DNA of 64,000 nt from Herbidospora yilanensis. Its GTDB lineage: Bacteria > Actinomycetota > Actinomycetes > Streptosporangiales > Streptosporangiaceae. Location: contig NZ_BBXE01000044.1 of NCBI RefSeq assembly GCF_001570565.1, positions 1-64,000 of the forward strand, written 5' to 3'. Below the pieces are notes generated by a model. The model did no database searches and had not been told where the DNA came from. It saw nothing but the letters and a program-made list of their open reading frames with translations. Numbering within the stretch: the stretch's first letter is position 1; each line of letters begins with the position of its first letter. The translations under genes and the position numbers were made by a program. This document shows positions 39,907 to 44,961 of this stretch, one piece after another.

Positions 39907-41229
39907 ATGCCCATTCGACGGTTTCCCATCCTTGACGACACCCTGGCCATGCTGGCCGGGGGCTACGCCTGGTTGCCGGCCATGCTCCGCCGCGCGAGCG
40001 GCGCCCCGGCGCACACCCGGGTGATGGGGCGGCCCGCCGTCGCCCTCCGCGGCCCGGAGGCCGCGCGGTTCTTCTACGACGAACGCCACGTCAAGCGCGC
40101 CGGAGCCCTCCCGGAGCCGATCCGGGCCACGCTGACCGGCAAGGGCACCGTGCACAGCCTCGACGGCCCCGCCCATCGTGCCCGCAAGGCGATGTTCCTG
40201 TCGCTGCTGGCCGACCCCGGCCACGTCGCCGACCTGGTGCGGCAGGCGGCCGAGAGCTGGGACGAACGAGCCGCCGGCTGGCCGGCCCGACCACGTGTCG
40301 TGCTGTTCGACGAGGCGAGCCGCGCCCTCACGGCGGGTGTGTGCGCCTGGGCGGGGCTCCCCGTCAAGGAGGTCGACGACCTCGCCGCCGACATGGTGGC
40401 GCTGGTCGACGGGTTCGGCTCGGCCGGCGCCCGCCACTGGAAGGCCCGGCGGGTCCGTCTCCGTCGTGAGGCGTGGCTGGCCGATCTCCTGGCCCACGAC
40501 GACGGCGCGTCGGCGGGTCTGCTCGCCCGCCACGTCACCGGCCATCGCGACGCCGACGGCGAGCCCTTGAACCCGAGGGCCGCCGCCGTCGAGATGCTCA
40601 ACGTCATCCGCCCGACCGTCGCGGTCGCCTGGTACGTGACCTTCGCCGCGCACGCGCTGCACCGCTGGCCGGAGAACCGGGCCCGGCTGCGCGACGGCGA
40701 CCCCGCGTTCGCCGAGGCGTTCGCGCAGGAGGTGCGGCGTTTCTACCCGTTCGCGCCCTACGTCGGCGGCCGGGCCGTGGGGGATCTGACCTGGCGCGGC
40801 GAGCCCATCCCGGAGGGCGCGATGATCCTCCTGGACGTCTACGGCCAGCATCACGACGAGGCCCGGTGGGAGCGCCCCTACTCCTTCCGCCCCGGCCGTT
40901 TCCTCGACGCGGGCGTCGGCCGCGACGACCTGATCCCCCAGGGAGGCGGCGACCCCCACACCGGCCACCGCTGCCCCGGGGAGGCGGTCACGGTCGGGCT
41001 GCTGCGCGAGTTGTCCGTCCGGCTGGCGCGGCTGCGCTACTCGGTGCCCCCGCAGGACCTCCGCATCCCCCTGCGCCGTATCCCGACCCTCCCGCGCAGC
41101 GGCTTCGTCATCACCGGCGTGCGCCCATCCGCCGTGGAGACTCCGGATGAAAGCGCCGCCCGGGTCGCGAACGGCAACCCAGGCATCGCCCTTGGCCACC
41201 TCGGATCTGCCGACGCCCAGCGGCACTAA
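39907..41229 (+). CDS. Cytochrome P450, CYP152 peroxygenase type
   Basis: The 440-residue P450 has the heme-ligand motif GHRCPGE (Cys356) preceded by PQGGGDPHTG, and an I-helix Arg-Pro pair (NVIRPTVAV, R235-P236) in place of the usual acid-alcohol pair. Both are hallmarks of the CYP152 fatty-acid peroxygenases, which use hydrogen peroxide and need no redox partner. No ferredoxin gene is nearby, which fits. A C-terminal tail of about 25 residues beyond the family's usual end is present. The product could hydroxylate or decarboxylate fatty acids. Confidence 0.92.
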   Translation: MPIRRFPILDDTLAMLAGGYAWLPAMLRRASGAPAHTRVMGRPAVALRGPEAARFFYDERHVKRAGALPEPIRATLTGKGTVHSLDGPAHRARKAMFLSLLADPGHVADLVRQAAESWDERAAGWPARPRVVLFDEASRALTAGVCAWAGLPVKEVDDLAADMVALVDGFGSAGARHWKARRVRLRREAWLADLLAHDDGASAGLLARHVTGHRDADGEPLNPRAAAVEMLNVIRPTVAVAWYVTFAAHALHRWPENRARLRDGDPAFAEAFAQEVRRFYPFAPYVGGRAVGDLTWRGEPIPEGAMILLDVYGQHHDEARWERPYSFRPGRFLDAGVGRDDLIPQGGGDPHTGHRCPGEAVTVGLLRELSVRLARLRYSVPPQDLRIPLRRIPTLPRSGFVITGVRPSAVETPDESAARVANGNPGIALGHLGSADAQRH

Positions 41230-41505
41230 CGAACCCGAGAAGTGACCTCTGTGCGCCGTTTCCCGCCTCACTGAGGGAGAGGGAAAAAGAAACTTTTGCC
41301 GGGGAGTGGTCCTCGGGACAATAGTTTCAACGACTACCGGAACTCCCATTTTGGTCATGGTTTGAGGCGACTTTAGGGGCGCATGGTTGCCATCGTCCGC
41401 CGGGCGGTCGATACGTTTGAGCTAAGGTAGCGCTTTTTCCGTCGTGTATCTCATCACTTCGGAGCCATTCGCCAATCGCAGTCAACCGACCTGCGGGAGG
41501 ATATT
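41230..41505. other. Intergenic region before the MACPF cassette
   Basis: These 276 bases hold no gene I can support. The sequence becomes visibly less GC-rich here. AAAAG-AAA-CTTTT at 41285-41297 could form a small hairpin downstream of the P450 gene. No convincing promoter pair was found for the next operon, although it must start here. Confidence 0.5.
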
Positions 41506-41988
41506 GTGACCGCGAACGCGACCATTCGGCAGATCTGGTGTCTGCGTCATGCCACCGGTACGGACTTCGGCGTCGTCGAGAGCCTGACCGGCCTGGTGCC
41601 GGAGAAGCTGCTGAGCGATCTGAACGGCGAAACGCTGGCGGGCTTCATCAAGGGCCTTCCAAATGTGGTGGCGGCCATCGACGGCGCCCGATCAGATCCC
41701 GACAACCTCTTCGTCACCACCTCCACTTCGGGTGATCTGAACGACTCCATCTGGCCGCCCGGAAATGAGACCGTGGACATGCAGGCCGATCAGACCCAGG
41801 CACCTGGAATCGTGGTGCCGGTGGACTTCTCGCAAAACATCTCGCTCTGGGATCACGACTTCTCCGACAACGACCTGCTGGGGTCGATCACCATCTTCGA
41901 ATCAGAGCAGGGCACGGGAGACATCGCCAAACTCGCCAAGTCGGAAGTCGAAAGCTCCTATTACTACGTCACCTACTCGGTCGAATAA
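41506..41988 (+). CDS. C2-like beta-sandwich protein of unknown function
   Basis: The 160-residue protein has no signal peptide. Its C-terminal part reads ISLWDHDFSDNDLLGSITI...SSYYYVTYSVE, which resembles the end of C2-type calcium/lipid-binding domains (LWDxDxxSxDDLLGS). The N-terminal 60 residues are not recognisable. The GTG start has GGGAGGA at ideal spacing. It lies 27 bases before the MACPF-like gene, so the two are probably one operon and may act together at membranes. Confidence 0.65.
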   Translation: MTANATIRQIWCLRHATGTDFGVVESLTGLVPEKLLSDLNGETLAGFIKGLPNVVAAIDGARSDPDNLFVTTSTSGDLNDSIWPPGNETVDMQADQTQAPGIVVPVDFSQNISLWDHDFSDNDLLGSITIFESEQGTGDIAKLAKSEVESSYYYVTYSVE

Positions 41989-42015
41989 TTCGACCGAGGG
42001 GAAAGGGGTGGTTCG

Positions 42016-43374
42016 ATGGGCCTGCTTAACATCACCGTTCCAAACATTCGCGCTTACGATTTCGGCGTCGGGGTGGACCGGCTGTCGGGAGCACCGATGA
42101 CCCGGGCAGTGACCGCGACGCAGACGCCGCCCGAAGCCTCGGCCGGCCGCACGATGTCTTTTGAGGTCACCCGGATCGAGTCGAGCGAGGAACTGGAAAG
42201 GAAGCTCGGGATCGATATCGAGGCGTCGGCCGGATGCGCTTCCTTCGGCGCGGGAGCGTCGGCACGCTTCAGTTTCATGAAGGACAGCAAGGTTCATTCA
42301 TCCTGTCTTTTCATGACCATCACCAGCGTCGTCCGCTTGGCCGATCTGAGCATCGACCAGCCGACCCTCACCTCTGAGGCTGCCGCGGCGACAGCCCGCC
42401 CGGACGTGTTCCGCGCCCGATACGGCGATATGTTCTGCCGGGCCTGCGCCCGGGGCGGCATCTTCGTCGGGGTGTTGCGAATCGACACGCGGGACAGCTC
42501 CGAGGCGACAACGCTCTCAGCCGAGTTGTCAGGTTCGTACGGGCTGTTCTCCTCCGAAGCCAAGGTCAGCTTCAACGAGACCCTTGCCAAGCATCAGGCG
42601 CAGTCGTTCTACAGGCTCTACACCGAGGGAGGACCACAACTGAACATCCGCAATCCGTTCGACCCGGCCGAACTGCTGGAGTTGGCGAATCTCTGGCAGA
42701 AGGGCATGCAGGACGATCCGAACTGCAGTGTTCCCTATGAGTGGACGCTATCGGCGCTCACCATCGCGGAGGGCCCGATGCCCCTGAACGCGGCGCAACT
42801 CCAGCAGGCGCAAGATGTGCTGCAGTTCTGCGCGCGCGAGCGAACCGATCTGCTCGACAGGCTCAACGCGTGCGAGTGGGTGAACGATCACGCCGACCGG
42901 TACGACTGGACGGGCGGAATCACCCAGGACCAGTTGCGTCAAGTCTCTCAGGCCGCTCAGGTCGATCTCGACCTGGTGGCGCAGTGCGCAAGTGCGGCGA
43001 TCGACGATCCCGGCGGGGCCACCATGCCGGCCGAGTTCGCCGCGAGCCGCTCGAAGGTCTATCCGTCGGCGGCAGTGGTGGCGCTGCCGCAGCCGAAGCC
43101 TGGGACTCCCCGGGAACGGCAGATCGAACTCCCCGACATGGTCGGTAAGTCGTTCGCCACGGCGCGCGCACTGCTCGCGCAAAGAGGGCTGCAGTCCCAA
43201 TACTCGGCGCCGACCGAGATCACACAGAACGGTCAGGTTCTCGTCGGCAGCATCGTCGGCATGGATCCGCCGGCCAAGTCCATGGTCGCCGCGAGCACGG
43301 TGGTGACCCTCGAAATCGGCGACTACAGGGAGAAGACGCTCGTGAAGAGACTCGGCAAGTCCCCGTCCGGATGA
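42016..43374 (+). CDS. MACPF-like pore-forming protein with C-terminal PASTA domain
   Basis: The 452-residue protein has no signal peptide. Residues of about 50-240 resemble a MACPF/CDC fold: a VTRIESSEELERKLGID start, GASARFSFMKDSKVHSS, then RYGDMFCRACARGGIFVGVLRI (about 135-156), which matches the YGTHYV...GG region of perforin-like proteins, followed by a SYGLFSSEAKVSF strand. Residues of about 371-436 form a PASTA domain (LPDMVGKSFATARALLAQRGL ... VGMDPPAKSMVAASTVVTL, in two parts). PASTA domains bind peptidoglycan-type ligands, so this may be a pore former with a cell-wall anchor. The MACPF call rests on motif resemblance only. Confidence 0.6.
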   Translation: MGLLNITVPNIRAYDFGVGVDRLSGAPMTRAVTATQTPPEASAGRTMSFEVTRIESSEELERKLGIDIEASAGCASFGAGASARFSFMKDSKVHSSCLFMTITSVVRLADLSIDQPTLTSEAAAATARPDVFRARYGDMFCRACARGGIFVGVLRIDTRDSSEATTLSAELSGSYGLFSSEAKVSFNETLAKHQAQSFYRLYTEGGPQLNIRNPFDPAELLELANLWQKGMQDDPNCSVPYEWTLSALTIAEGPMPLNAAQLQQAQDVLQFCARERTDLLDRLNACEWVNDHADRYDWTGGITQDQLRQVSQAAQVDLDLVAQCASAAIDDPGGATMPAEFAASRSKVYPSAAVVALPQPKPGTPRERQIELPDMVGKSFATARALLAQRGLQSQYSAPTEITQNGQVLVGSIVGMDPPAKSMVAASTVVTLEIGDYREKTLVKRLGKSPSG

Positions 43375-43420
43375 ATCAGATTCGACACGGTCCCGTCTCA
43401 CGTCATCGTCAGGAGGCACA

Positions 43421-43828
43421 GTGCATACCAACGAATTGACCGGCGAACCTGCGCTGTGGGCCTCGCTCATCAGCAGCGGCCTGCAGCTCCTGGCCGCCTT
43501 CTGGTTGCCATTGACGGAGGCACAGGTGGCTGTCATCAACGCGGCTGTCCTTGCCGGTGCGGGCGTGTACGTGGCGTTGGCGACGAGGTCGACGGACAAC
43601 GGAGGCTCCATTAAGGGAGCCATCCTCGGACTCACGCAGGCGGCGATCTCGCTGGCAGTGACGTTCGGCTGGCAGGTCGATCCCACCCAGACAGCGGCGC
43701 TGATGGCGTTCGTCGGCCTTGCGGTAGCCGTGCTGATCCGGCAGACGTCGGTGCCCAAGAGCGCTGCTGCGGCCACATACAGCGCGCCGACCTCCGCTCT
43801 GCCGGAGCCCACTCCACCAGGAGGTTGA
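43421..43828 (+). CDS. Holin-like small membrane protein
   Basis: The 135-residue protein has three or four short hydrophobic helices (ALWASLISSGLQLLAAFWL, AVINAAVLAGAGVYVALA, AILGLTQAAISLAVTFGW, AALMAFVGLAVAVLI) and a short polar Pro/Ala tail. The size and the pattern LTEAQVAVINAAV resemble phage holins of actinobacteria. The GTG has AGGAGG four bases upstream. It lies 46 bases after the MACPF-like gene and is followed by a strong terminator, so it closes the operon. Confidence 0.6.
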   Translation: MHTNELTGEPALWASLISSGLQLLAAFWLPLTEAQVAVINAAVLAGAGVYVALATRSTDNGGSIKGAILGLTQAAISLAVTFGWQVDPTQTAALMAFVGLAVAVLIRQTSVPKSAAAATYSAPTSALPEPTPPGG

Positions 43829-43874
43829 TGGATCCTCATCCACCCCATGAGCGAGGTGGATCTCGACGGGAACC

Positions 43875-43907
43875 GAACGGCCGATGGATCGAGAACATCG
43901 GCCGTTC
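43875..43907 (+). terminator. Strong intrinsic terminator of the MACPF cassette
   Basis: GAACGGCCGATG (43875-43886), a nine-base loop and CATCGGCCGTTC (43896-43907) form a perfect 12-base-pair stem followed directly by TTTC. It lies about 45 bases after the last gene of the cassette. Confidence 0.8.
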
Positions 43908-44352
43908 TTTCAGCCGTGCCTCAGCCGTACAGTGATCGCGGTTTCTGGCGAACTCTTCGAATCCTTCTGCCTGTGCCGTTCAGCCGAGCAGAAAGGGGGG
44001 CGGTTGCTAGACGGTCGGGACATGCGTCTTCATCTGCGCCGGCCGGGGGACGTCTTGTGCTTCACCCGCGTGGCGGCCTGCTGCGTGACCTGCTTCATCG
44101 GCCGGTATTCACTGGGGCTGTGCCGGCGGTGGAAAGATCTACCGGATGATCGTCAGCTCTTCCCGATGGCCGCAGGGGCGCTCCGCAGTGGACATCTGGG
44201 CCGTCTGGGATCTCACGGACCCGAGCGGAGCTTGAAGACGACGGTGCGGGTCACGGGGCTACAGGCATACCCCCGCCCGAGGTCACCGCAAGCCGCCTGT
44301 CCGTGCCCGGGAAACCGGCTGGAGCAGACGATCCGCCCCAGCCGGCACCTTC
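43908..44352. other. Gap without a supported gene
   Basis: Several frames stay open here, but none has a good ribosome site, a recognisable motif or the codon use of the neighbouring genes. I see no clear transposase or phage remnant. The region separates the MACPF operon from the convergent RTX-like gene. Confidence 0.5.
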
Positions 44353-44862
44353 TCAGGCTTCGCAGCCGCTTTCTGTCTCGGCGCTGCAGGTGTCGAACCC
44401 GCCCACCCCGTTGGCGACGTCCACCCCGCCGTTACCGATCAGGGTGTCGTTTCCGGTGCCGCCGTTGAGCCCGTCCCGGCCTGACCCCCCGTTCAGGGTG
44501 TCTCTCCCGGCGCCGCCCAGAACGGACGACTGCAACGATGTCTTGTTGGTGACCGTGTCATTGCCCCCGAGCATGGTCGCGTCGATGAACTGGACGTTCG
44601 TCGAGCACGAGGCCACGGTCGCCCCCTGGGGGATGCACCCGGCGCCCGGGGTGATCCCCGAGTCGGAGTCGACCGTGAGCAGCCCGAACTGGAACTCGAT
44701 CCTGACGGTCTCTCCGGCGGACGTCCCGACGATGAACAGCGTTCTGCCGCTGACATGGACGGATGCGGCCGAAGCGGCGTTCGCCGGGGCCGCGGTCGCG
44801 AGCCCGGCGACGATGATCGCCAGCGCGGTGAGAAGACGTTGTACTACTGGCAGGCCGACCAT
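44353..44862 (-). CDS. Secreted protein with RTX-like calcium-binding repeats
   Basis: The 169-residue protein has a signal peptide (QRLLTALAIIVAGLATAAPANAA) and a C-terminal run of Gly/Asp nonapeptide-like repeats (LGGNDTV, GGAGRDTLNG, GSGRDGLNG, GTGNDTLIG), the pattern of hemolysin-type calcium-binding repeats. A short Cys-containing tail follows (FDTCSAETESGCEA). The ATG at 44862 has AAAGGG nine bases upstream; 44880 is an alternative. It probably folds outside the cell when calcium binds. There is no RTX type I secretion gene nearby, and the signal peptide suggests Sec export. Confidence 0.8.
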   Translation of the reverse strand: MVGLPVVQRLLTALAIIVAGLATAAPANAASAASVHVSGRTLFIVGTSAGETVRIEFQFGLLTVDSDSGITPGAGCIPQGATVASCSTNVQFIDATMLGGNDTVTNKTSLQSSVLGGAGRDTLNGGSGRDGLNGGTGNDTLIGNGGVDVANGVGGFDTCSAETESGCEA

Positions 44863-44961
44863 GTCGGTGAACCCTTTCATAGGACATTGTGTACGGTTAA
44901 ATAGCCTGGAGGTTGGCCGGACATGCTGTCAAGTCAATACGGAAGGCCGCCCCGCCGGCCG

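Follow-up and report, generated by a model that had tools for sequence, protein, structure and literature searches.

Animal perforin-1 is built as MACPF-EGF-C2, and the PASTA domains of PknB and PBP1 are found on membrane-anchored proteins. Among published proteins that invite comparison, Mpf2Ba1 is a MACPF protein with a beta-prism tail that is activated by insect gut fluid (PMC10344926), the receptor of BSAP-1 is read by its C-terminal domain (PMC12853789), a CDC-like protein is activated by proteolysis (PMC11952106), and AfIP-1A/1B is an insecticidal pair encoded by adjacent small and large genes, with no MACPF relation found for AfIP-1B (PMC5465095). In the open PMC literature, a scope that leaves most subscription papers and bioRxiv preprints outside, we found no report of MACPF combined with PASTA, or of MACPF with a C2 domain and a holin; among the papers listed by a literature search on actinobacterial MACPF proteins, none dealt with MACPF. 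Here we describe three adjacent plus-strand open reading frames (ORFs) in a 64,000-nt stretch of Herbidospora yilanensis DNA (contig NZ_BBXE01000044.1, positions 1–64,000; the window), from a genome whose assembly comprises 67 contigs and 7.85 Mb. ORF1 (41506–41988) encodes a C2-like protein of 160 amino acids (aa) without a leader, ORF2 (42016–43374) a 452-aa MACPF/CDC-fold protein, presumed to form pores, with a C-terminal PASTA domain, and ORF3 (43421–43828) a 135-aa holin-like membrane protein with phage kin. We tentatively favour a reading, whose probability we put just short of even, in which ORF2 is a leaderless MACPF/CDC pore-forming effector with an interchangeable targeting tail, ORF1 provides a C2-like module in trans, and both act outside the cell once they have left it via the holin or on lysis.

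A preliminary description of this DNA, made from the sequence alone, had called the middle protein MACPF-like because of a YG...GG...VLRI stretch. The stretch is present, and G137, D138, F140 and G147 are invariant in an 11-row alignment that includes the window. It had also proposed structure prediction and a fold search of the 452-residue protein; the predicted model has the bent-sheet MACPF/CDC fold and matched MACPF/CDC structures rather than an unrelated fold, with VIA-align ranges of up to residues 1–252, so that a MACPF-like domain is placed at about these residues (42016–42771). Profile A6, built from 11 of the 13 ORF2-family members then collected, matched the Aegerolysin-L pore (PDB 9uj0) at E 2.3e-11 over family positions 7–242 and Mpf2Ba1 at E 1.1e-5, indicating homology to proven MACPF pores. 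A glycine-rich, alternating region resembling transmembrane hairpin (TMH) 1 (residues 66–96; 42211–42303) and a TMH2-like region (residues 163–195; 42502–42600) showed stronger beta- than alpha-alternation in 13/14 and 14/14 members, respectively. This test, like the core tree described below, covered 14 of the 17 family members; L036 was left out because the N-terminal half is out of frame in its assembly, and the partial, distant L019 and L020 were left out of these analyses and of A5 and A6. We conclude that ORF2 is, by predicted fold and homology, a leaderless MACPF/CDC-superfamily protein, and we infer that it is a pore-former. A search for close relatives of ORF2 in phages gave no match at E 0.01 among 50,697 phage records, and pattern-limited scans of viral contigs confirmed none. 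One further locus, L011, gave a weak match (E 0.00996).

The PASTA domain that the preliminary description had placed at the C-terminus of ORF2 is recognised by Pfam above the cut-off (2e-8; residues 370–435, 43123–43320) and has the PASTA fold. In contrast to this tail, the chassis that carries it (residues 1 to ~340, comprising the MACPF domain and a helical bundle) is constant in the family. We classified the tails of all members except the distant L019 and L020. PASTA tails occur in the window, L015, L027 and L035, although above the Pfam cut-off only in the window and L035; beta/gamma-crystallin tails occur in L004, L012 and L033, a leucine-rich repeat (LRR) tail in L013, a ConA-like tail, below the cut-off, in L036, and a C2-like tail without a Pfam match in L034. 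The tail was not recognised in L005, L014 and L016, and is of unknown type in L017 and L018. L027 (PASTA) and L034 (C2-like) are 68% identical over residues 1–360 and differ beyond. The core tree puts the PASTA-bearing members at two or more separate positions. The window groups with L015 (100/100); L035 and L027 belong to another clade (100/99), where L027 is sister to L034, with its C2-like tail, and L013, with its LRR tail, branches between this pair and L035. The deepest forks are weak. Since the chassis is shared, the tails differ and the PASTA-bearing members are scattered, we conclude from these comparisons that the tail is exchanged, as a targeting part would be.

Several members of the family have neighbouring genes of their own. 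Downstream of the MACPF-like genes of two Azospirillaceae lies a small gene (L005:9130–9591 and L014:7173–7628; 91% identical, without a Pfam match), which could be a partner replacing ORF1. The MACPF-like gene of Nostoc carneum is followed by a gene (L017:7625–8101, plus strand) whose product has a hydrophobic start and, by eye, repeats the C-terminal domain of the MACPF protein itself; it might serve as an anchor or as a partner of immunity type. An LGFP-repeat gene (L004:7424–7942; Pfam 1e-49) lies 53 bp upstream of a Streptomyces plasmid MACPF-crystallin gene, and a second LGFP-like gene (L004:12247–13233) ~2.6 kb downstream, near transposase genes. The MACPF-family gene with the ConA-like tail lies at L036:7661–8816 (minus strand).

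The C2 assignment of ORF1 comes from its relatives, which bore out the suggestion that the first gene is C2-like. One, 36% identical, is encoded by a Streptomyces plasmid; the other is a 319-aa Calothrix plasmid protein with two C2-like domains (L022:4407–5366), of which the second half matches ORF1. Pfam C2 matches the whole Calothrix protein at 6.3e-6 and the half that matches ORF1 at 0.099, below the cut-off. The three-row profile A7 (ORF1, the Streptomyces protein and the Calothrix half) had the perforin-1 C2 domain as its top hit in the PDB (E 0.048), and 8/9 listed sequences were C2 proteins by name. The five-row profile A8 reached dysferlin at 7e-6 and perforin-1 at 5.5e-4, with nearly all of 45 rows C2 proteins by name; A8 includes the better Calothrix C2 domain, which may supply part of this score, whereas A7 does not. 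D116, D118, D121 and D123 of ORF1 precede an LLG, D118 and D123 are invariant in the three-row and five-row alignments, and alignment with perforin-1 places these acidic residues in C2 calcium loop 3. By eye, ORF1 and the second C2-like domain of the Calothrix protein both contain a long hydrophobic insert close to the expected position of calcium loop 1. We conclude that ORF1 is very probably C2-like, with sequence homology to C2 reached through the Calothrix relative and A8, and that it is a probable calcium/membrane adaptor. The C2-like tail of L034 matched the Calothrix C2 domain at E 0.001 in a two-sequence BLAST and the ORF1 profile at E 0.0013 with an hhalign probability of 18%; from this MACPF protein come weak, indirect hints of a C2-MACPF link, in which the two would work together in the family.

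Genes like ORF1 are rare. A sequence search found ORF1 in 1/246 genomes of the class, namely its own, and the ORF1 profile matched 5/297 genomes of the family and 6/394 of the class, own genome included, mostly partially. The best relatives are L077 in G593 (72%) and L078 in G453 (55%). The L077 gene lies 35 bp downstream of a subtilase gene (Pfam 7e-40), and the L078 gene overlaps by 4 bp a PG_binding_1 gene (1.6e-6), the first 100 residues of whose product are 33% identical (E 2e-9) to the product of a gene 87 bp upstream of a Pseudoxanthomonas MACPF-PASTA gene, itself a PG_binding_1 match at E 0.14 only. At L021 a PG_binding_1 gene (3.9e-8) lies two genes away. Because its kin stand beside subtilase and PG_binding_1 genes, ORF1 appears to be a C2-like accessory that moves with varied leaderless exoprotein-type genes. 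Four distant stand-alone C2-like proteins of 154–181 aa (L079, L080, L081, L082) have, by eye, signal-peptide-like starts; in the class sample the C2 profile matched four genomes of one genus (g74), and L071, L075 and L076 are weak C2 matches. The closest ORF1 relative (G593:C23, 69710–70186) lies ~31 kb from two PF06841 contractile-tube genes (101045–104527).

ORF3, taken in the preliminary description for a holin-like membrane protein, matches PHROG 9752 'holin' at E 3.3e-17 and has hydrophobic stretches near residues 10–57, 62–86 and 86–113. In phage LazerLemon a relative is located close to an annotated endolysin, and in a Nonomuraea plasmid close to a peptidoglycan recognition protein. 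In a plasmid of Streptomyces tubercidicus that also has a phage tail gene, the relative is downstream of a gene for a peptidoglycan-binding protein. Others, in G039 (69%), G001 (63%), G004 (42%) and G031 (43%), occur in regions that look prophage-like by eye. The endolysin of L025 and the peptidoglycan recognition protein of L023 are named in the records; the endolysins of L044, L045 and L047 were judged by eye, and so was the prophage character of those three loci and of L048. An ORF3 match was found in the own genome and in 5 others of 80 relatives, DNA similarity between the window and the stretches with ORF3 relatives is confined to the holin gene, and ORF2 is absent from the holin-bearing relatives G001, G004, G026, G031 and G039. 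The own genome has a second, degenerate holin-like copy with one stop (L046:7241–7480, G000:C14; 40% identity).

The spacing of the three genes is as first described: gaps of 27 bp (ORF1–ORF2) and 46 bp (ORF2–ORF3), with good, purine-rich ribosome sites upstream of all three; the starts of ORF1 and ORF3 are consistent with full-length relatives. Downstream of ORF3 lies a perfect 12-bp inverted repeat (43875–43886/43896–43907). The region 43860–43920 folds at -28.4 kcal/mol (z -3.3), a stability equalled in 0/200 shuffles. A consensus scan of the locus called neither promoter nor terminator, and the hairpin has a 9-nt loop and a short T run, so that, of the perfect terminator first proposed, the perfect hairpin stands and its function as a transcription terminator (43875–43907) is likely. 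The short gaps, the three ribosome sites and the single hairpin suggest one transcript for ORF1–ORF3.

The surroundings of the genes suggest that they arrived from elsewhere. As noted at first sight, the region is less G+C-rich than its surroundings: 41126–44249 has 63.1% G+C against 71.8% for the remainder of the window, and none of the 110 other windows of this length across the 64 kb goes that low (their minimum is 69.3%). Homologous DNA borders this stretch on either side in the compared sections of the sister genomes G005 and G004, where the stretch itself is unmatched, and ORF2 is absent from 6/6 congeners searched. Homology to the congener G005 runs up to window position 41119 on the left and resumes at 44249 on the right, and there the two flanks lie ~273 kb apart on the same contig. 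We rejected a simple insertion given this distance, the absence of any tRNA found within the 64-kb window, and repeats in 40900–44500 that are short and imperfect only. Because of the low G+C, the congeners without ORF2 and the separated flanks, the stretch looks like acquired DNA at a rearrangement point. The genes flanking the cassette encode a P450 and, on the opposite strand, a 175-aa protein with RTX calcium-binding repeats (44353–44880, minus strand; Pfam 1.7e-6) and a leader-like start. This convergent gene belongs to the old flank, since G005 has it too, adjoining the same monooxygenase.

These results, all computational, support the domain assignments, the swapping of tails on a conserved chassis, the foreign base composition, the absence from congeners and the lack of leaders. 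To them our favoured reading would add joint action of ORF1 and ORF2, release by the holin, pore formation and a target. In that reading ORF2 would be a constant pore chassis with PASTA as its targeting tail, one of several that can be interchanged, and ORF1 would be a second, C2-like targeting module supplied in trans, so that the pair would resemble a perforin with its MACPF and C2 parts on separate genes. Both would be synthesised in the cytoplasm and released through the phage-type holin or by cell lysis. Outside, calcium would lead ORF1 to bind membrane, PASTA would anchor ORF2 at a cell-wall-like ligand, and ORF2 would oligomerise, its two helical clusters turning into beta-hairpins that perforate the target. 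That ORF1 and ORF2 act together seems to us possible but somewhat doubtful. The most likely target would be competing microbes, with insects or other eukaryotes possible. A bolder version, in which a split, calcium-dependent two-gene MACPF and C2 perforin with a peptidoglycan-reading PASTA tail and a phage-derived holin valve is put together out of a common stock of leaderless effector parts (C2-like adaptor, PG-binding protein, subtilase, and MACPF chassis with exchangeable tails), we regard as unlikely.

A number of results weigh against this reading. The ORF2 model is middling (pLDDT 66, pTM 0.44; residues 66–86 below pLDDT 50), and Foldseek TM-scores by query length are low (0.20–0.36 for rows with E <= 0.001). 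Pfam does not find MACPF in ORF2 even with E allowed up to 5, and finds it in only 3/15 scanned relatives, each time sub-threshold (E 0.003–0.015); we treat the missing match as a detection limit and not as a defining feature. Helix 259–291, a control, also scored beta over alpha in 11/14 members (mean 0.81), and helix 304–330 in 1/14, so with these mixed controls the hairpin pattern test has limited power. The profile search that had been proposed for PASTA and C2 succeeded for PASTA, but ORF1 alone has no Pfam match; Pfam C2 is likewise absent from the P0008, L077 and L078 relatives and present in the Calothrix relative alone. A single-sequence structure model of ORF1 reached pLDDT 32, and the L034 tail, also without a Pfam C2 match, is C2-like by weak scores alone. 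The cassette, which holds only ORF1–3, contains no endolysin and so lacks the holin-endolysin pairing of type 10 secretion. Finally, 0/16 ORF2-family loci had ORF1- or ORF3-like neighbours (tblastn E <= 0.01), and 0/8 ORF1-family loci had ORF2-like neighbours; the DNA compared around loci varies in length, genes around several relatives were called by a crude greedy caller, and tblastn overlooked the divergent C2-like tail of L034, so further divergent C2 neighbours could escape.

The preliminary description had taken the three genes for a dedicated system and had set this co-occurrence search beforehand as the test that could refute it. Its four domain guesses (MACPF, PASTA, C2-like and holin) stood, but with none of the 16 loci carrying the other two genes the conserved three-gene cassette was rejected. 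We conclude that, among the loci examined, the set is a single assembly and not a conserved system, and that ORF1 and ORF3 seem to have been recruited separately. The same counts favour an alternative in which three separately acquired genes stand together by chance or through shared regulation, ORF2 alone being a pore-former, ORF1 a general C2-like exoprotein accessory and ORF3 a stranded phage holin. The company kept by ORF1 kin (subtilase and PG-binding proteins), the prophage-like settings, judged by eye, of ORF3 kin, and the position at a rearrangement breakpoint agree with it, whereas the evidence for a single transcript and the existence of a MACPF protein with a C2-like tail (L034, on weak scores) do not. 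We consider this alternative unlikely, though deserving of serious weight.

Release is a further point on which explanations diverge. ORF1 and ORF2 have, as first described, no signal peptide: neither has a hydrophobic N-terminus on inspection of sequence hydrophobicity, as distinct from a signal-peptide predictor. Together with the outward-looking tails and the holin, this leads us to release by holin or lysis followed by action outside; the holin would be a candidate exit route, but that ORF3 itself exports ORF1 and ORF2 appears rather unlikely. Lack of leaders and an adjoining holin gene would also suit an intracellular suicide or lysis module, in which pore-former and holin act on the producer's own membrane in gasdermin-like programmed lysis or phage defence. 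Gasdermin genes are flanked by proteases, and serine-protease-like genes flank the MACPF-family members at L027 (7106–8026, minus strand) and L033 (10314–11273, plus strand), with domain matches that are all sub-threshold (Trypsin_2 4e-5; viral-type serine peptidase models 2e-4 and 0.006); these are possibly activating proteases. However, PASTA, crystallin, LRR and ConA-like tails suit extracellular ligands, stand-alone C2-like relatives have signal-peptide-like starts (by eye), and the bacterial MACPF protein Mpf2Ba1 acts in the insect gut (PMC10344926). PADLOC, run on 10 proteins, gave two weak matches only, one of them to the PASTA part of ORF2, and a known defence system was rejected on this result. 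We therefore regard a suicide module as improbable. The PF06841 contractile-tube family, taken as a single marker, had 0 matches in the own genome and was present in 3/9 genomes searched; an extracellular contractile injection system (eCIS) route for the effector in its own genome is unlikely.

We also considered a binary insecticidal-type toxin in the style of aegerolysin and MACPF, with ORF1 in the place of the aegerolysin and the animal gut as target. The nearest solved relatives of the ORF2 family are indeed Aegerolysin-L and the insecticidal Mpf2Ba1, and the adjacent small and large genes recall insecticidal AfIP-1A/1B, but the authors who described that pair found no relation of AfIP-1B to MACPF (PMC5465095). 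Moreover, ORF1 has no aegerolysin match in Pfam and is C2-like instead, the tail of ORF2 is PASTA and not a beta-prism, and no feature of the locus indicates an animal host. This alternative strikes us as quite improbable.

If our favoured reading is true, bacteria build perforin-like weapons from exchangeable parts, including the type of C2 module that aims animal perforin; it would also suggest that PASTA is able to aim a pore-former at cell walls. The locus makes it possible to test how actinobacterial pore-formers without leaders get out of the cell, and tail swapping on a 68%-identical chassis provides natural pairs for the contribution of the tail.

The proposed pair resembles perforin-1 in combining a MACPF chassis with a C2 domain of similar loop-3 pattern (W-D-x-D, then D-x-D-L-L-G), but here C2 is on its own gene with a longer N-terminal part, the tail is PASTA, no EGF is seen and there is no leader. 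Among solved structures the Aegerolysin-L pore is nearest to the ORF2 family in sequence, and aegerolysin/pleurotolysin-B pairs share the two-part logic of a small membrane-recognition protein and a MACPF protein, although ORF1 is C2-like and not an aegerolysin. The bacterial MACPF proteins Mpf2Ba1, Plu-MACPF (2qp2) and GNIP1Aa are among the best fold or profile matches of ORF2; Mpf2Ba1 and 2qp2 also have an extra C-terminal domain, theirs being a beta-prism where ORF2 has PASTA (PMC10344926). The antibacterial BSAP toxins of Bacteroidales likewise choose receptors through variable C-terminal tails (PMC12853789), whereas they are surface lipoproteins with leaders and other tails. ORF3 is a clear sequence relative of the phage holin family PHROG 9752, but no endolysin adjoins it. 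Lastly, the PASTA domain of ORF2 shares sequence and fold with those of PknB and PBP1, and differs in standing on a soluble MACPF-fold protein.
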